NCBI GenBank assembly: GCA_007922195.1
Contig: ML682008.1
Location: 11,231,056-11,295,055, forward strand
From: Podocnemis expansa
Taxonomy: Eukaryota > Chordata > Testudines > Podocnemididae
Reading direction: 5' to 3'
DNA length: 64,000 bases
This document shows, piece by piece, positions 1 through 9,018 of the stretch (positions within the stretch are counted from its first letter, which is position 1; each line of letters begins with the position of its first letter). The notes below the pieces were generated by a model. The model did not search any database, was not told where the DNA came from, and saw only the letters and a list, made by a program, of their open reading frames with translations. The position numbers were made by a program, and so were the translations under genes.

Positions 1-1810
1 CAATATCTCTACATCTGTGCTATTCAGAATTCCCAATCCTGTTCCTGCTCCTCCTAGAGCTGTTTCAATCATACTTCTCTTCTTCCTATCTTTGCTAGTA
101 CTTGGAAAAACTTGAGGGTATATCTCTTTTCCATCCTTTTTCTAAAGGCTTGGTATAATTTTGGCATTGGAGTTTTATAGAAAAAAAATCTGTGTAAGAT
201 CTAATTCTATTTTCTTATGTGAATAGGATGGATCTATTATCAATTGCTTTCTAATATCTTCTTTCACTACATAAGGACCAATATTTGCTACTGTTGGTTT
301 AAGTACCCATGTAAATGGAAAGGTATAAATAAAATCTTTACCTGAAAGTTTCCATGTTCTGCTACCCCATTGTCTTATTATGTTTACTTCCGCTTCACAA
401 TAGTAATTAAATAGTGTTTACTCATATGAACCTGTTTGGCATTCCTTTTCCTGTAGAAAACATTTATACACCATTGGATGAAATTGTGCTATATCTACTT
501 TGGTTAAAATACTCATGTTCATTTGACACTTAAAGGGATGTGTGCTAATATTCCCTTTAAGATCTTCTAATCTGAATGTATATATGGTATTGTTGTGCCT
601 ATTATGATACCACCGAACATGTATTTCCTGTATATTTCCTTTATTCCACAATGGAATAACCCAAACAAGGACTCTGCATCTGGATTCTTTTTCAATCATA
701 ATTGTTCTTTGTTCTGAACTTGCCACTACATTTGATCCCTCTATAATAATGCATTGCCGATGTCCTGGCATAATTGTTTTCCCAGATATTTTTCCTTTGT
801 TTAAATTGTAGTCTCAAATCCACACATAGATGGTTTAGGGGCAAAGTAATATTGTGGATGTGTTAAAATTCTTCCCTGTTCTACTGTGTCAAATTTGAGA
901 AAACACTTATGTGAGAGTTGTGTAGCAACATTTCGTATATTGTGTCTCTGCATGATAGCTTCTAATGTTCCCATCATAATGATAAGAGATTTATTCTTCT
1001 TCATTACCTCCTTCCTAAGCTTTTCTTGAATTATGAATTCACAACCTTGAACCTGACATGCAGAAGGTCCTGGGTTCAATTCCCAGGGGGTTGGACTCAA
1101 TGATCTCATGAGGTCCCTTCCAGCCCTATGATTTGATTTGATTCGATTCATTATCCATGCTGTGGGAGAATCAATCCATTGGGTGTTAGCAACTATTTCT
1201 TGCCTTTCTAATGATTGTATTATTTCTACTTTACCTGTTACTTTTTCCCTTATAACTCTTCTAATAGATTTATTGGCAATAGTGATAGAATTTTGAATGA
1301 GAGTGCACTGCCATGGTCCTAATCTATTTACTTCACCAATCAATCTCCCTTGCTTTCTGGTGTCATCCTATGTGCAACTAGAACGTTGTGGCAACACTCT
1401 ACTAGAACCTATAATGTTTACCCAACCGCTCTCTTTATTGTTGAATTCAAGAGAACATTTATGGGCACTACTTGCAGAAAAGCTTTTGTTTTGAACTAAA
1501 AATTCTATGCTCTCTATTGGTCCCATGAGAACTATAATTTTTGTGTTGTTTAGTGGTGGAAGTGTGAAAATACAATCTTCTACACTTCCATATGCAATGC
1601 TGGAATCTTCAGCTTGTTTGCTCCATTGAATGGTTACAATCGGGTCTGTCTTGTTCACAATACCATAACAGCAGTACGAGTATGCAGAGACCCAAAAAGG
1701 CAAGTACAAATACCACTCCACCTTCCATCTGCTGGATTCTGGAACGAAATAAACACAAAGAACCCTTCCTTCTTCCTTTAAACAACAATTGTTTCCTTTA
1801 TTTGACACTA
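1..1810 (-). pseudogene. env: Retroviral env remnant, 5' two thirds, continues off the left edge
   Basis: This is the envelope region of ERV-1. A hydrophobic signal-anchor-like stretch follows a methionine at 1728, with residues VFVLAFLGLCILVLLLW. The surface-subunit region is cut into open stretches at 1808-1368, 1343-801 and 771-418 in different frames. Near bases 20-70 there is a small-residue segment reading GGAGTGLGILNSTD, which has the character of a transmembrane-subunit fusion peptide. The membrane anchor and cytoplasmic tail lie outside the window. A SINE/CR1 fragment interrupts the gene at about 1060-1155. Frameshifts and stops make it non-functional. A homologous stretch occurs in ERV-2 at 51330-51990. 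Confidence 0.75.
1060..1155 (+). repeat. SINE fragment with tRNA-like B box and CR1 3' tail, inside env
   Basis: GGTTCAATTCC at about 1073-1083 matches a Pol III B box. It is followed directly by a CR1-type 3' tail (GGACTCAATGATCTCATGAG, then GTCCCTTCCAGCCC) and a TGATT-type short repeat. Tortoise Pol III SINEs are known to combine a tRNA-derived head with a CR1 3' end, and this fits a 5'-truncated member. The minus-strand env open frame (1343-801) runs through it without a stop. Confidence 0.7.
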
Positions 1811-1904
1811 TTTACAACACAACTGTACACATTTATGTGATCTGATTTACTAGGAGTTTCGGATAGTAGACAAGATTCTAGCTAAAATTCATTCCTACTG
1901 ATAT

Positions 1905-2402
1905 TTATGCTTCTCGGATTTCTAAGCAGATTAAATCAATAATCATGCTATCTATAGCCTTGAGGATATCTTTTCCAACAATTCCAAAAGTAAAAAAATG
2001 CCAAAACTTTAATCCAAATCTGTGGTAAGTGCTTTTCCTTCCAATTTGAATACAAATAGGATGAGTTAAATATATTTTGGTTTGCTGGAATTTTACTTGA
2101 CTTGCTGTAGGTGGGAGTGTCTCCATTCTTCTTAGATTTATAAAAGACCAAGGTGCAGTAGGCACAAAATTAAAATAATCTAACTGTGTAGAGTTTGAAT
2201 GGGATAAAATAACAGGAATCAGTATACATCCATTAATTGGATTTCTAACAAGTCTAACAATTAGATCCAATTCTCCTTCCCATTCCTCTACTTCTATGGG
2301 ATGATTAACATTTTCCTGTCCTTGCACCTCTCGAGATGGTAATGTTGCTTCATCTCCTGGTACTTCTGCTTCATCTGCAACTTGGACTTCTTTGTCCTCA
2401 AC
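1905..2402 (-). pseudogene. Retropepsin-like accessory gene, copy E
   Basis: This is the fifth and last protease-like unit before env. It is the least broken: one frame is open from about 2402 to 1905, although no ATG is visible at its start. The N-terminus is acidic and is followed by EEWEGELDLIVRLVRNP. The segment NFVPTAPWSFIN aligns with the catalytic loop of the true protease (LIDTGATFSLVN), but the aspartate and glycine are gone. THPICIQIGRK and TFGIVGKDILKAI align with the C-terminal half of the protease. I infer a catalytically dead retropepsin fold. The function is unknown. Confidence 0.7.
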
Positions 2403-2787
2403 TATGATTTTTTTTGTCTCCCTTGTATTCTAGGATTTAAGGATGTGGAGACCTTTACTCAGAATTTCTTATTTTATTCTGGTAACCAAAGGAGTCTAAC
2501 AAAAATAAGCACAAAATCCTTTTTTTCCATAACAAATTTTTTTTTATAACTGATATTTAAAATTCCTTTATCTTACTAAAATTTGGACAGTTAAAACATT
2601 TTTCTTCTTTTTTTGTTTTCCTATTTTACAAAAACTCATTGCTTTATCACTATATCTTAACATAACTTAAACTAACTACACTAAAACTTGTTCCTTACAG
2701 AATTAGACTAAAACTTATCTAATGAAACCTAAGAACTTAAAATTTCTTAAAAATTAATATATATATATTAACCCATGATTACTATTT
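2403..2787. other. AT-rich spacer between copies E and D
   Basis: The stretch is very AT-rich, with T-runs and a short (TA)n at about 2757-2768. No open frame is convincing. It separates two units of the protease-like array and may hold the leader or splice acceptor for copy E. I see no sharper signal. Confidence 0.4.
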
Positions 2788-3320
2788 TTAAACCTCCTGG
2801 ATTTCCATTCTTTCCATATCAATAATACGTCCCTTTATCTTCAATAATAGATCTTCTCCTAGTGTTCCTTTTACATTAGAATTTAAATTTATGATTCCAA
2901 AACAATGATTTACTTGTCTTCTCCCTATACACACTTGAATTGGATGAGTGATCCGCATCCAATTGGGGTGCCGCCCAGTAGGTTGCTGGCATAATCTAGC
3001 CATCCCTGAGAAAGGTGGAGAGACAGGGAGTTGGTTTATATTTAAAATAGATTTAACAGAACTTGGGGCCAGATTAAAAAAGATCATGACGGTCTAGCCC
3101 TCATAGTGGAGGAGCACTAGACAGTCAGGGCTCCTGTTCCTGTTCTAAATAATTGGACCACAGGATCCCTGGCAGCCTCCCAGTCCTCCCTTTCAAATTC
3201 TTCTTCATTAATAAAACCCTCCTTGGGGAGTGCCGTCTGCTCTTCAGGTTGCCTTTCTGCTTCCTCAGCCTCCCATGTGTCTCTCTCCTCTAGTTGTCCC
3301 TCTCTATGCTGTGCTGCCAT
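2788..3320 (-). pseudogene. Retropepsin-like accessory gene, copy D
   Basis: The unit starts at ATG 3320 within GAGAGAAGAATGGCAG, a context shared almost exactly with the ERV-2 unit that starts at 55434. The first 67 residues are strongly acidic (EEFEREDWEAARDPVVQLF). A frameshift lies between 3117 and 3087, after which the frame continues to the stop at 2788. NLAPSSVKSILN aligns with the protease catalytic loop, with DTGA replaced by APSS. THPIQVCIGRR and VKGTLGEDLLLKI align with the protease C-terminal half. One frameshift is the only visible break. A regulatory or structural role in the virus would be inference only. Confidence 0.75.
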
Positions 3321-3540
3321 TCTTCTCTCTTTTTTTTCCTGTTTATTCTTCGCTATTCTAAAACTAAAACAATAAAACTTATCATCTGGGCTCTTAATAT
3401 CTTGCCAAATATTTAGTATATATCTATCTATGCATATTATTTGTATTATTACATTTTAAAACTAAATACTTAACTGTATAATTAAAATATACTCATTTCG
3501 CTTCAACTAACAAATGTAACAAACTTAATACAGAGGACTT
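3321..3540. other. AT-rich spacer between copies D and C
   Basis: AT-rich sequence with no convincing open frame. The purine-rich block directly before ATG 3320 belongs to the leader of copy D. Nothing else is recognisable. Confidence 0.4.
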
Positions 3541-3544
3541 AAAC

Positions 3545-4074
3545 ACTTTCTTTCAGAATTCTAATTTCCAATCATCTTTCATCTATTACATTTCCATGTA
3601 TTTTCCTCAAAATATCACCTCCAATAGTGCCAAAGGTGACACAGAGCAAAGTTATCATTCTAAATCTATGATATATTAACTTTCTTCCAATTTGAACTCA
3701 GTCAGGATGACTCAACCTAATTCTTCTTCCCATGCTTCTGAAATATCCTGCTGGTTGAGGGAGAATATCTAATCTTGTCAAATTTATTAAAGAATAAACT
3801 GAACTTGGTCTTAAATGTAAATATTGAAAAGTTGTATGGGTTGCATAGATCAATGTTATCAATGTAAAAGGGTTCCTGTAAGGAAGTCTCTAGTTAGTCT
3901 CACTATAGGATGTAAGTTGTGATCCCAGTCTTGTTGTTCCAAGATGTTATCATGAACTTCTTCAATTTGGACTCCCTGTGGGTACATTGCCTCTCCATTT
4001 ACTTCTGCCTCAGCTGCTACAGGAAGAATAACTTCTGTTATCTGCTCTTCTTTTCTTTGCTCAGTCATCCTCAC
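3545..4074 (-). pseudogene. Retropepsin-like accessory gene, copy C
   Basis: The unit starts at ATG 4074 or the second ATG two codons later, 20 bases or fewer downstream of TGTTTGTTTATAG, a plausible splice acceptor. The leader is rich in E and Q and is followed by DWDHNLHPIVRLTRD, which matches the equivalent segments of copies D and E. A frameshift near 3858 separates it from HLRPSSVYSLIN (catalytic-loop position, with RPSS in place of DTGA). QIGRKLIYHRF and TFGTIGGDILRKI follow, as in the protease C-terminal half. Two further in-frame stops lie in that half. Confidence 0.7.
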
Positions 4075-4204
4075 TGAATATACCTATAAACAAACACATT
4101 ACTTACTCTTATATTCCGACATTTTTCACACACTACTTATACTTCTATTCTATTGTTTCTGATACAAGTATTTTAATCTACTTGCTAGTCTGTATACACA
4201 AAAT

Positions 4205-4780
4205 TTATAGTAATTGGACCAAGGCATCTTTTTCCAAGTCAATCTAACATTTTAACATTCTTAAGATTTTGATCCCAAGTATTCCATATGGACTTTCATC
4301 CATTTCGATTAATTCAAATTTAACATTTTCTATTCTTTTATTCCCTATTCGTACAGCTAGAGAGGTTGTAACTTCCACTTTCCCTGGTATTTTTGTTATT
4401 TTGATTCTCTTATGTGTTCAGTATGAATCTGTGGCATGATTTTAGTATTGATTATGGAATGCAACGCTGTGGGATCTATATAGCATATGTGCCTCATTTC
4501 ATTATCTTTTACCTTTACATATGTTATTATTAATGGTCTGTTTTGATGATCTTTTAACAGTGGAGTTATATCTGTTATCTAGAAATACAACTGTTGGAAC
4601 TTCTGTCCGAGTTCCTTTTTCTTTTGTTTCATTAAGAATGTTAAAGAGAAACTCTTCCCTCAACTCATCTGAATTTTGTTTTTCATTGTGATCTTCTTGT
4701 CACAAAATCCACTCTATTTCTAAGCTTCTCTTCGTGGTATTTCCTTGATCCAATATCTTCAATACCTCATCATCTTCCAT
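4205..4780 (-). pseudogene. Retropepsin-like accessory gene, copy B
   Basis: The start is at ATG 4780, in a leader beginning MEDDEVLKILDQ. The unit is more decayed than its neighbours and its parts lie in two frames. YIDPTALHSIIN aligns with the protease catalytic loop: the aspartate is kept but the following TGA triplet of residues reads PTA. LAVRIGNKRI and PYGILGIKILRML align with the C-terminal half, where the true protease has GNEILGMDILRSL. It sits between copies A and C and has about the same length as they do. Confidence 0.65.
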
Positions 4781-4873
4781 CGAGGTTACTCCCTCCACCC
4801 AATTCGCCACATTTGTGAATTTTACAAGAATAACTTATTACCTATATCTAAGACTTATTTTACACACTTATTT

Positions 4874-5320
4874 CTATTCGTTATCACTTTCAAGTAAACT
4901 TCTTCTTCCAAAGTCTAGTGTACAGTTCATTGCTGTGATCGCATCTAATCCTAAAACACTATATTGTTCTGGACCTAAATCCATAGGTCCAAAATTTCCA
5001 AGCAACCTTTTTGTTTCTATGTGGACTCTTGGAGGAATACTTATGGGAATTACTCCCCATCATTCTGAAGAATGAACCCATCTCCTTTCCTCTGTAGCTA
5101 TGTTATTAATATTCATTCCATTGGTGTTTAGGATAGAAAACTCTGCTCCTGTATTTATGGTAAAGTACACAGTTTTAAATCTTTCTTCTACATTCACAAT
5201 TGCTGCAACAACCCATCTACGGTCTGGATCCTCTAATAATCTTGCAATTTCTCCATCCAATAATCCATTTTGATCCTCTACATTACATTCATATCCACTG
5301 TCTTCATTCTTATTCTCCAT
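4874..5320 (-). pseudogene. Retropepsin-like accessory gene, copy A, one in-frame stop
   Basis: This is the first gene after integrase. From ATG 5320 to the stop at 4874 it is a single frame of about 148 codons, interrupted only by one TGA (5062-5060). The leader is acidic (ARLLEDPDRRWVVAAIV). TINTGAEFSILN differs from the viral protease loop LIDTGATFSLVN chiefly by D to N at the catalytic aspartate. QYSVLGLDAITAM followed by TLDF matches the protease end (GNEILGMDILRSL, then VVDL). It is the copy closest to the true protease, which suggests duplication of pro followed by divergence. The asparagine predicts loss of proteolytic activity unless it arose after integration. Confidence 0.8.
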
Positions 5321-5399
5321 ATTTTCTACAAAAATGAAAATCAACTATACTTAAACTATACATATGTACAAAACCTTTTTTTGACTTAATCGACTTCTT

Positions 5400-6430
5400 A
5401 ATTGCTTATTTTTACTGTTTTAATGAACTCTCCCTTCCACTTTTTCATTTGAGAAAAATGGAACCACTTAACTACCTTTCGTTTTCCTCGTTTAATCTCT
5501 AGCATATATACAGTGGGACTTGCTTTATTGATAATCTTGACTGTTCCTTCCCATACAGGACATAGGATATGGTCCTTCTCTTTAAACTATCTCCTATTTG
5601 CCATTCTTGTGGGTGCAGAATCAGTCCTAGTTTTTGATCCCTTTGCTGAGCTTTTTGCTTTCACAGCTATGGCTATCTGCTTATGAGTTTCTGAAATAGA
5701 TTTTAGGAGTTGTTGCATCCAGTGATCCGTTAACACTTTTGGTTGCACTTCATCTGGAGGGTTTCCAGCTAACCACCATCATTCTGGCAATCTCATGCTT
5801 CTTCCTGTCATTGCTTTAAATGGTGTTACTCCATGAGATGCTACTGTTCCTCTAATAACCATTAGTATTAAAGGTAGTTTTTGATCTCAATTCTTTCCTT
5901 GCAAATTTACTACTTTTCTTAAGACATTCTTTACAGTTCTGTTTGTTCTTTCCACTTGTCCTGAGCTTTGTGGGTGTCCTGCTATATGTAGTCTTTGCTT
6001 AATTCCAAATGCTTGGCATAATCCTTTTGTTATTTCTCCTACAAAATGTGGACCTTGATCTGAATCTATTTTTTTCGGAATTCCTCATCTGGAAAAGACT
6101 TGATCTACTAATACCCTAGCAGTGGTTAGTACTGTGTTATTTTTGGTGGGAATTGCTTCTACCCATTTAGTGAAGGGATCGACAATCAGTAAGCAATATT
6201 TGTTTCCCTTAGCAGTATTTGCAAGTGGGCCAATATAATCAATTTGTAATCTTGACCAAGGACATTCAATCCTTTGATGTCCTAATTTTCCTTTCACTAT
6301 TTTAGCATCCACACTGTTCGCTGCACAAGGCAAACAATTATTCACATATTGTTCTATATCTGTTCTCATGTTAGGTCACCATCCTGCCACTTGCAATCTC
6401 TCCAAAGTTTTATCTACAATGAAATGTCAA
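5400..6430 (-). pseudogene. pol: Retroviral integrase domain of pol
   Basis: The N-terminal zinc-binding region ends in NNCLPCAA near 6330. The catalytic core shows LQIDYIG (first aspartate, near 6240), DSDQGPHF (second aspartate, near 6055) and SSGQVERTN (glutamate, near 5950), so the DDE triad can be read. A basic C-terminal domain follows and ends with EIKRGKRKVVKWF. In-frame TGA stops lie at 6378-6376, 6087-6085, 5889-5887 and 5781-5779. The order and spacing after RNase H are those of a normal pol polyprotein. Confidence 0.85.
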
Positions 6431-7600
6431 TGATCATGTGCTAAGGCTATCACTTCTGTTCTAAGAGCAGATGGCACTACCCATACAGGCATTTCTTCCT
6501 CTGTTTTAGTTGCTAGGACTAGTCCTGTTTCATGCTTTTTAATATGCCATCCATGAAACTCTCCTTTTTCCACTAATTTCTTTATTTCAGGATCCTTCTT
6601 TTGTAATGTTATTAAATCAACTTGTTCCACTTGTTCTTCTCCTATACGGGATATTGGGGCTGTTTGGAACTGTATTTTGGGTTCCCATGGGGTCCCCTCC
6701 TTGGCTCCTAATTTAGCTTGTTCATCTGCTTTATTATTCCATTGAGCTTCTTCAGTATTTTTCTTGTGTGCTTTTACTTTTCCCATTAACACTGGTTGTG
6801 ATCTCATTTGAGCTAAGTTCCACAAGTATATCAGTTTTTCAGAATGAGCTATGGGCTTGCCATCAGCTGATTTCATTTCCCTTTTCTGCCAATGAGACAT
6901 CCAATCCACTGTAGCTTGTGATACCCAATCAGAATCTGTGAAGATAGCAACTTGTTTGTCTTGTGGGACATTTTCTAGTACTACAACGACAGCTACTATT
7001 TTGGCTGCTTGAGCTGAATGTGGTGAACATCATCCCCTTATAGCCTTTTCATCAGAGATTCTGATTGCTGCATATCTAGTAAAAGGCTGGCCGCCTTTGT
7101 GGTAACTTGATTCATTTACAAACCAAACTTCATCTAACTTGTCTTTTATTTCCTGCAATTTTGTTCCTCCTTGGAACAGTATAGGACCTTCTGGAAGAAT
7201 TTCTGACAAAGGACACTCATGTTGTTCTCCTATTATAAGCCCATAAGGGACTGGAGATAAAGCTAGAAATGTCTTGATGCTTACATTCTTGTTTAGTAAG
7301 GCTAGGGTCTATTTAGCTAACCTAAGACTGGATACATGATCATTATTACTCTTTCCTGTCAGAACACATTTTACAGGGGAGTGTGAGGTTTTTAACAATA
7401 CTGGGGATAATCTGACTAGATATTCCCAACGTTGTAAAGCCCATACCAATGCTAACACTTCCTTCTCACAAGGAGTAAAACCTTGTTCAATTCCTTTGAG
7501 ATTTCTAGAAGTGTAAGCCACAGGTCTTAGTCCAGTACCATGATCCTGACTAAGAACTGCACTCATTCTGGTGTTTGTGATAGCTAATTGAAGCACAAAA
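6430..7600 (-). pseudogene. pol: RT connection and RNase H domains of pol
   Basis: The connection region reads LRPVAYTSRNLKGIEQ and CEKEVLALVWALQRW (7596-7309), typical of retroviral RT after the thumb. RNase H follows with FTDSDWVSQAT near 6940 and VKAHKKN then KADEQAKLGA near 6770-6700, giving catalytic and hinge residues. A stop (TGA 7032-7030) and frame changes break the protein. It cleaves the RNA strand of the RNA:DNA hybrid in an active virus. Confidence 0.85.
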
Positions 7601-8650
7601 GGTTTTCCTACCTTTTGGGTAAGCTAAAGCTGGAGCTTGTGCTAGTGCTTGTTTTAATTGGATAAATGCTGTTTGCTGGTCTGTTTCCCATTCCCACTGG
7701 GCACCTTTCTTCAATAACTTGTATAATGGAGAAGCTTTTTCTGCATAATTTTCCATAAAATCTCTGGAAAAGTTTGTCATTCCTAAGAATGATTGCAGAG
7801 TGGAAATATCTGTAGGGGCTGATAATTTCTGTACGACTTCCACTCTTTGCTTATTTAGTGAACGTCCTTCTTGTCCTAAAGTTACTCCTAGACAGTTTAC
7901 CTGTTGTTGGCATATCTGTGCTTTTTCAGGGCTAACCTTAAAACCTGTTTCTTCTATTTTCTGCAGAACTGGCTCAAGAATTTCCAAATTTTCCTCTTCA
8001 GTTTTGGTGCTAATCAGAATGTCATCCACATAGGATATTATGTTGTCCTTTTTAGGCATGTCATCCAACATTTTGATTACGTGCATATGGTACATCTTAG
8101 GTGACAAATGGAATCCTTGTGCAGCACAGTTGTTGACCTTGGTACAAGTTTGCCTTCACTTTCCAACAGTCTCAGTGTAGTGGTATGGAAAAGAATGCAT
8201 TTGCCAGGTCTAATACAGTAAATCATTTTGCTCCTCCTATTATAGAAGCCATTACTTCTGGATATTTGGCCACAGCTGGTGCAGTTATTGGAGTTACTTT
8301 GTTCAATGGCCTGAATTCAACAGTTAATCGCCATGTCTTTCCATCTGCTTTCAGAACTGGCCAAATAGTTGCATTATTTCTGCTTTGTTTTTCTACTACA
8401 ACTCCTTGATCTAGCAGACCCTGAATTGTTTTTGCCAGACTTTCTTTGTTTCCTTGGGATATTTATATTGTTTTTGAGGTGGGGGATCAGTTCATGTAAT
8501 TAGAACTTCAGCATTAATTTTTCCACATTCTGCTTTATTTTTCACCCATACTTTTGTGTTGTAGAGCGATTTCTAGAATTTCTTTTAGTCAATTAGGCCA
8601 TTTTACTTCCTCAGCAGCTTTTATAGTAGGTAGACTATAGACCTGCTTCT
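7550..8650 (-). pseudogene. pol: Reverse transcriptase domain of pol
   Basis: The fingers and palm begin near 8440 with LLDQGVVVEKQSRN and WRLTVEFRPLNK. The first catalytic aspartate is in VLDLANAFFSIPL near 8200. The active-site motif SYVDDIL lies near 8030, followed by VNCLGVTLGQEG and LQSFLGMTNFSRDF of the thumb. In-frame TGA stops occur at 8225-8223 and 8158-8156, and the frame changes near 7600. The region between 8440 and 8650 links protease and RT and holds no domain I recognise. Confidence 0.9.
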
Positions 8651-8700: not shown

Positions 8701-9018
8701 TCAGGTTTTACTTACCAAATCAACTACAAGTCTTAGACTTCTTAGAATATCCATTCCTAATATTTCATTTCCATTTAATTCTATTAGGCCAAATTGTCCC
8801 TTTCCATATGTGTTTCCTAATTTAAAATTTACTACAGGGCTGAATGGAACCCTATTTTCTGCTTCATTAAATCCCTGCAGGTTCCTAACAATGACTGGAG
8901 ATCCAAATAGATTTTTCTTTTTAGTGTTAACTAATGAGAAAGTGGCACCTGTATCAATTAACATGTTTTGTCTGAACACTCCCTGTTTAAACTCTACATA
9001 AACTGTAGGTCTCCCCAT
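8701..9018 (-). CDS. pro: Retroviral aspartic protease (retropepsin), open frame
   Basis: An open stretch of 105 codons encodes the viral protease, which cleaves the Gag and Gag-Pol polyproteins and works as a homodimer. LIDTGATFSLVN carries the catalytic D-T-G near 8955. NGNEILGMDILRSL near 8745 is the hydrophobic C-terminal motif that retropepsins place before the final helix, followed by VVDL. The preceding gag-side frame reads through a UAG at 9098-9096 and shifts near 9012 to reach this frame, so a small indel separates them. This is the reference sequence against which copies A to E are compared. Confidence 0.85.
   Translation of the reverse strand: MGRPTVYVEFKQGVFRQNMLIDTGATFSLVNTKKKNLFGSPVIVRNLQGFNEAENRVPFSPVVNFKLGNTYGKGQFGLIELNGNEILGMDILRSLRLVVDLVSKT

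Follow-up and report, generated by a model that had tools for sequence, protein, structure and literature searches.

Lentiviral vif and vpr/vpx and the orfA/B/C genes of walleye viruses are accessory genes of retroviruses, and vpr/vpx also arose by copying. To our knowledge, no accessory gene of a complex retrovirus derives from the viral protease, and five related genes in a row are unusual. The snakehead retrovirus carries small accessory open reading frames (ORFs), namely ORF1-3 and the 3'ORF (PMC12193657), the chicken element Ovex1 has no obvious accessory ORFs (PMC2717909), and CrocERV29 holds a KIT-ligand captured between pol and env (PMC4299795). In the present study, we analyzed 64,000 nucleotides of the turtle Podocnemis expansa (GenBank assembly GCA_007922195.1, contig ML682008.1, positions 11,231,056 to 11,295,055; this whole stretch is called the window), whose minus strand carries, over about 9 kb down to base 1, an endogenous retrovirus (ERV) with the order pro, reverse transcriptase (RT), RNase H, integrase, five units (A to E) and env. 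We propose, with moderate confidence and on the basis of sequence comparison, that units A to E are paralogues of the viral protease (retropepsin) which lost their catalytic activity, were kept as accessory genes and most likely act as non-catalytic binding modules. The units resemble the accessory genes of complex retroviruses in being small extra ORFs beside gag-pol-env that are missing from some relatives. In CrocERV29, a reptile ERV, an additional ORF lies at this very place and is likewise under purifying selection; however, it was captured from a host messenger RNA and is not a copy of a viral enzyme (PMC4299795).

The five paralogous units occupied window positions 1908-5320, between integrase and env. 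The first-pass annotation had placed five protease-like units here on the coding strand, and both the sequence and tblastn searches within the window bore this out; the C-terminal words that it quoted were also present. The units and the candidate acceptor of the first one are as follows:

4877 to 5320, minus strand: unit A, acidic leader of about 24 amino acids and retropepsin-like domain, loop NTGA, interrupted by a single in-frame stop (matched by an open copy in tblastn at 78% over 148 amino acids; seven open copies aligned).
5326 to 5327, minus strand: candidate splice acceptor AG just 5' of the unit A ATG (sequence; all seven open A copies have an acceptor-like site 5 nucleotides before their ATG).
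4208 to 4810 (about), minus strand: unit B, long acidic leader and retropepsin-like domain, loop DPTA without glycine, split over frames (tblastn 60% over 205 amino acids; Pfam RVP).
3557 to 4068 (about), minus strand: unit C, acidic leader and domain, loop RPSS here where most copies have RPNL, broken (two frames matched by tblastn, at 75% and 66%).
2791 to 3320 (about), minus strand: unit D, acidic leader and domain, loop APSS, in two frames, differing more between copies than any other unit (tblastn matches of 59% and 63%, one per frame; same-provirus comparison).
1908 to 2429, minus strand: unit E, open frame of 174 codons, loop VPTA (sequence, genome matches, alignment, tblastn).

Thus, one in-frame stop cut unit A, units B, C and D were split over frames, and unit E was open, with the start codon of other copies aligning at about 2408, where the window has no ATG. 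In the tblastn searches within the window, the C, D and E proteins of other copies cross-matched each other's positions (E 2e-26 to 3e-10) and A matched D (E 7e-4); unit B gave no cross-match to the other units. An alignment of the window's own pieces, made without any outside copy, gave the same register.

The unit families were compared by hhalign with column-shuffled controls, using 12 shuffles per pair and 40 shuffles for each family against a profile of nine chosen pros. All scores between unit families were above the maximum of the 12 shuffles. The mutual scores of C, D and E were 169-176, compared with shuffled maxima of 15.5-18.0, and the D-E alignment extended across the leader too. 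The A-B score was 48.0, and A and B scored 37.3-55.0 against D and E; the narrowest margins were those of A-C (24.3 versus 14.7, P 0.003) and B-C (22.6 versus 16.6, P 0.009). Against the pro profile, the scores were 46.2 for A, 74.2 for B (P 3e-12), 23.9 for C, 39.6 for D and 35.1 for E, with maxima of 16.9-19.4 among the shuffles. In addition, a single B protein used as the query in the genome search reached the unit A position in two proviruses (E 6e-4 and 7e-4), and Pfam RVP was listed (E up to 1) for all eight open B copies, the best at 1.9e-4 with 22.1 bits versus a cut-off of 20.7. Altogether, B matched the retropepsin family by Pfam, and A, B, D, E and weakly C matched the pro profile. 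These comparisons tied A, B, D and E clearly to the virus's own protease; C was tied firmly to D and E and weakly to the protease by itself, so that it is linked to pro mainly through D and E, given its weak direct score and its strong match to these two. Pfam, the shuffled hhalign comparisons and the tree described below agreed with the first-pass annotation that the units are retropepsin-derived, duplicated and placed between integrase and env.

The name and the notion of a second protease-like retroviral gene were applied before, to the "pseudoproteases" of the 1980s, which proved to be dUTPases (PMC4531489). The present units match retropepsin profiles instead. Given this history, we considered another fold, such as dUTPase, for the units as well. 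However, the dUTPase family was absent from Pfam scans of the window pieces (E up to 10) and of seven A, eight B, two C, three D and two E copies (E up to 1), in which RVP was listed for every B copy and for one of the seven A copies, and the C-terminal GxDxL and a loop in register with DTGA are features of retropepsins. The dUTPase identity was rejected on the Pfam scans, and we consider any such fold extremely improbable.

We also weighed whether the founding copy could have come from the host, as a captured retropepsin of the DDI or ASPRV1 kind, and not from the virus's own pro. In the PDB profile search, the best matches of unit B were 7efy (0.0028), a UBA domain-containing protein that we take to be DDI-type, followed by human DDI1 and DDI2 (0.04-0.05). 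However, a profile of 11 pros matched ASPRV1, DDI1 and the equine infectious anemia virus protease and likewise ranked ASPRV1 and DDI1 first, so the DDI match of B is not specific. Since B also matched the pro profile strongly and the units grouped beside the pro of this lineage, host capture seems improbable. Unit A had the feline immunodeficiency virus protease as its first PDB match, at 0.055, which is suggestive only. Other searches returned no relatives: unit E had 18 candidates in the protein database, none significant, scans of viral contigs with the E and B profiles found none, and PHROGs gave nothing for unit E and 0.23 for the first piece of A.

The catalytic loops were collected with search patterns in which the flanks were fixed and the four loop letters were free; loops with altered flanks were missed, and a DTG would have shown up because the four letters were left free. 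All 14 pro loci sampled, of which ten belong to the array lineage and four are sisters, had the loop DTGA, and the shortened pro of locus L044 read HTGA. A catalytic D-T/S-G was found in none of the 87 unit loops, which came from 23 arrays or part-arrays. The 18 loops of unit A were NTGA (13), NRGA (2), NIVA, TTGA and YTGA. Among the 20 of unit B, DPTA occurred in ten, with near variants in the others, and the aspartate was present in 19 and the glycine in none. Unit C had mostly RPNL (11 of 16, plus variants), unit D mostly APSS (9 of 15, plus variants) and unit E mostly [V/M/I]-P-x-x (18 loops). The domain pattern was otherwise kept, including the strand before the loop, S-h-h-N after it, and G-x-D/E-x-L with I-D near the end. 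The units are thus like the retropepsins of PF00077 (RVP), including the virus's own pro, in their profile, their catalytic-loop pattern, the C-terminal G-x-D/E-x-L and the following I-D segment, and unlike them in the missing D-T-G and in being separate genes with acidic leaders outside Gag-Pol. Judged by these loops, the units are catalytically dead.

In the genome (assembly of 2.39 Gb), a search with unit E scored 150 matches of 286 candidates, so the counts are lower bounds. The matches grouped into at least 71 loci, with two or more separate C/D/E-type units in at least 49 and three in at least 24. Near full-length matches, defined as covering at least 160 of 174 residues at 50% identity or more, had no stop in 26 of 37 cases among the 150 that were scored. 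Four pairs of them had identical coordinates and scores on paired short contigs, the fetched stretch being identical in three pairs and different in one; with identical pairs counted once, the figure was 23 of 34. When a B protein was the query, scoring 150 of the 325 candidates yielded at least 140 matches; of the 33 near full-length ones among these (at least 190 of 208 residues, at least 50% identity), 15 had no stop. Twenty arrays were fetched for reading. Although the units were not all open in every array, the open ones had their own ATG and stop outside gag-pol-env, with lengths of 148 amino acids for A, 205-208 for B, 169-173 for C, 156-181 for D and 164-168 for E. As a separate observation, distant B genes with open frames were seen in other ERV lineages, at C322:30640-31284 (43% identity) and C155:2027072-2027713 (36%).

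Selection across copies, a check suggested in the first-pass annotation, was estimated on aligned open copies (seven A, eight B, eight C, eight of nine D after the short copy L041 was dropped, and 15 E including the window). The median Nei-Gojobori ratio of nonsynonymous to synonymous substitution (dN/dS) was 0.27 for A (21 pairs), 0.23 for B (28), 0.23 for C (28) and 0.24 for E (105), and every pair was below 1; the compared copies include neutral time in the host genome, which pushes these values up. No median is given for D because dS was saturated in many pairs; its pooled pN/pS was 0.38 (bootstrap range 0.33-0.42). These results supported that the units were kept by purifying selection. 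They also bear on the possibility that the units are passenger pseudogenes, that is, functionless tandem copies of pro carried along. The mostly broken window copy and the varying make-up of the array between lineages (L062, L064) would fit such a history, but dN/dS values near 0.25 in four units, the own start and stop codons and the many open copies speak against it, and we regard it as very unlikely. Within the same proviruses, unit D was the most divergent, with a mean identity of 61% versus 85% for C (four proviruses), 62% versus 83% for E (six) and 58% versus 80% for B (five).

A tree was built from 35 rows and 125 columns of chosen open copies (seven A, six B, four C, four D, five E and nine pros), with X_L062 and D_L064 dropped. 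Each unit formed one clade across proviruses (B only at 80/92), C, D and E grouped together (98/98), A grouped with C/D/E (95/91), and all units stood apart from all pros (88/82). The inner branching order is tentative since the tree program warned of long branches. The tree gave moderate support to a single founding copy from this virus's own pro.

Related proviruses differed in their arrays. L064, whose pro is 70-72% identical to that of the window, had only A (loop YTGA), B, D and E at L064:2801-5474, with about 300 bases between B and D and thus no C. L062 had unit B and a further unit-like piece, X; the latter, at L062:2415-2678, ends in GYGYLGTDALSVLNFQIDL and was not seen in the five-unit arrays read. 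The sister copies L059 and L060, whose pros are 39% and 36% identical and read DTGA, had env directly after integrase and no unit. L059 also contained a 798-codon open env-like frame at L059:3359-5752, with no Pfam family above the cut-off. The relatives L061, L063, L065, L066 and L067 were interrupted or fetched off-place, and the presence of an array was readable in none of them. The first-pass annotation had counted related intact ERVs lacking these genes against its own reading. The L059/L060 sister lineage, with one open env, answers this description in part; it tells when the array was gained but leaves the finding standing, because many arrays with open frames exist. Given that L059 and L060 are without units and that L062 and L064 differ, a gain of the array on one branch, with later changes in its composition, is probable.

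These differences are relevant to the proposal that the units are protease regulators, which would assemble with the viral protease or Gag-Pol into inactive homo- or heterodimers and thereby set the timing of Gag processing or reduce it. A working retropepsin is a dimer in which each subunit contributes one catalytic aspartate, and the subunits pair through their terminal strands. The terminal-strand, post-loop and C-terminal helix stretches are kept in the units, and B retains the aspartate in nearly all loops; since the terminal-strand stretches align with those of the retropepsin, unit dimers are plausible. However, two sister-lineage copies lack any unit, and five different units with a fast-changing D look more like outward-facing adaptation. 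We consider protease regulation rather unlikely, and a host-facing role more likely than it.

All units had an acidic leader (median net charge -10 to -12), and the domain was roughly neutral in A and basic in the other four. All seven A copies, seven of nine D copies and 12 of 14 E copies had an acceptor-like site no more than 80 nucleotides upstream of the ATG, and at least these three units were probably expressed from spliced RNAs. The leader of B contained K-G-T-Q-T-E-E in 7 of 8 open copies (with M for the first T in one), K-A-T-Q-T in L062 and K-A-V-Q-T in L064, and the broken B of the window has R for Q; K-E-I/V-Q-V/T was present in 6 of 15 E leaders. The conserved K-x-T/V-Q-T of the B leader presumably fits the binding motif of the dynein light chain LC8. 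This motif is a lead only, because five-letter motifs occur by chance.

The remaining parts of the ERV in the window are as follows:

8704 to 9018, minus strand: pro, the viral protease, from which the units presumably derive (DTGA in the sequence; Pfam Asp_protease_2 0.003, RVP 0.0065).
6430 to 8155, minus strand: reverse transcriptase and RNase H, in pieces (Pfam RVT_1 1.7e-17, RT_RNaseH 1.8e-20, RNase_H 4.4e-13).
5401 to 6375, minus strand: integrase, in pieces (Pfam Integrase_H2C2, rve and SH3_Tf2-1; above the cut-off, Integrase_H2C2 only).
1 to 1811, minus strand: env region, directly 3' of the array, running off the window start (position and open pieces).

The best PDB matches of the RT piece were Gag-Pol/RT-RNase H p80 entries, which we take to be those of xenotropic murine leukemia virus-related virus and murine leukemia virus (XMRV/MLV), followed by foamy-type Pr125Pol. 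The integrase end had a GP/TV...KWFH..QMKKW segment resembling the class I GPF/Y end. From these two features, the ERV appears class I-like. The env region gave no Pfam match in the three pieces scanned and was named from its place and its signal-peptide-like start. By eye, the env ectodomain pieces at 421-1811 were internally repetitive, with two similar stretches around KQGRLIGEVNRLGPWQCTL and NKGKISGKTIMPGHRQCII. The env region was also interrupted at 1023-1140 by a short repeat with a transfer RNA (tRNA)-like part and a CR1-tail-like part, in which the T-arm-like GGTCCTGGGTTCAATTCCCAG was followed by a CR1-like end and a short repeat; we take it to resemble a reptilian short interspersed element (SINE) insertion, tRNA-derived with a CR1-like tail.

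A shortened ERV form also recurred in the genome, in which the pro match stopped at about residue 67-68 and unit matches followed within about 4 kb (for example L044:1359-1547, C612:6783-6971, C102:2715908-2716096, C80:13774407-13774595 and C97:864592-864777). L044 lacked most of pol and unit A, and in between lay about 900 bases, nearly all of them unmatched. These copies look like a non-autonomous subfamily. Recombination between pro and unit A as the origin of the pol-deleted copies was checked in L044 and was not supported: after pro residue 67 or so, the roughly 900 bases matched none of four compared sequences, save for one 39-base piece resembling the stretch just before unit A.

Based on these results, the five genes may have multiplied from one copy of the protease gene that had settled between integrase and env. 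The copies would form the lineages A, B and a C/D/E group, the latter duplicated together with its acidic leader. Each gene lost D-T-G, kept the remaining retropepsin-like pattern and carries an acidic N-terminal leader, and the units would be expressed as separate small accessory proteins, A, D and E at the least probably through spliced RNAs. The retropepsin fold, alone or as a dimer, could then hold one partner and the acidic leader another. Since the units are predicted to be unable to cut and yet were held functional by selection, they are probably helper proteins. We infer the splicing, the dimerization and the host-facing binding role; non-catalytic binding of host partners is favored because sister copies lack the units, the units multiplied and diverged, and D changes fast. 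More tentatively, the array could be a host-facing set that arose as the virus serially duplicated its own protease and the copies lost the active site. Its members would then be gained, lost and swapped between lineages (A-B-C-D-E, A-B-D-E in L064, B and X in L062); D would be in an arms race, and B might recruit LC8 through its K-x-T-Q-T leader motif. Other viruses may offer an analogy, in that duplicated enzymes are reused as host-facing adaptors or decoys. The herpesvirus dUTPase was multiplied into many diverged paralogues, some of them inactive, and dead homologues were given other roles (PMC11599850). The dUTPase-related proteins of herpesviruses are the nearest parallel in principle; they belong to another virus and another fold and are not relatives of the units.

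Several results weigh against the proposal that the array consists of dead protease paralogues serving as expressed binding modules. Besides RVP, the Pfam scans of B gave unrelated families (DUF1456 in six of the eight copies, best 0.0042), the single RVP match of unit A was at 0.11, and scans of two C, three D and two E copies (E up to 1) listed no retropepsin. The Pfam scan is insensitive for this ERV lineage, because both matches of the window's real pro themselves fall below the curated cut-off. In the PDB profile searches, units D and E gave unrelated matches only, at 0.57 or worse. The direct tie of C to the pro profile was weak, with a shuffled maximum of 17.4, and its score against the single pro of the window (14.0 versus 19.5 in shuffles) was not separable from chance. 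Predicted models of unit E from window-only alignments were uninformative, with a predicted local distance difference test (pLDDT) value of 36, or 45 for the domain only; a Foldseek search with the latter model found no match below 0.001 and no retropepsin in the best 50 of 124. The placement of the units beside this virus's pro depends on the sister-pro rooting and on long branches. The low dN/dS values show proteins of importance to the virus, but not what their role was. An acceptor-like site was present within 80 nucleotides of the ATG in 0 of 8 B and 1 of 8 C copies, and the background was 2.2 per kb on the coding strand and 5.3 per kb on the opposite strand. The spliced expression proposed in the first-pass annotation therefore found partial support, for A, D and E but not for B and C.

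The first-pass annotation had taken serial duplication of pro into an accessory block to be undescribed, and no earlier description of protease-derived retroviral accessory genes was recognized in the open-access literature, surveyed mostly by titles and abstract starts, with subscription papers, preprints and repeat databases outside its scope. If the proposal is true, this would be the first known retrovirus, as far as this literature and our knowledge reach, that built accessory genes from its own protease. The array would then be an internal record of the birth of accessory genes, comprising the parent enzyme, its dead copies, the later copies and the sister copies without units. The units would also represent natural, catalytically dead retropepsins evolved under selection, which may help to ask what the retropepsin fold does besides cutting.

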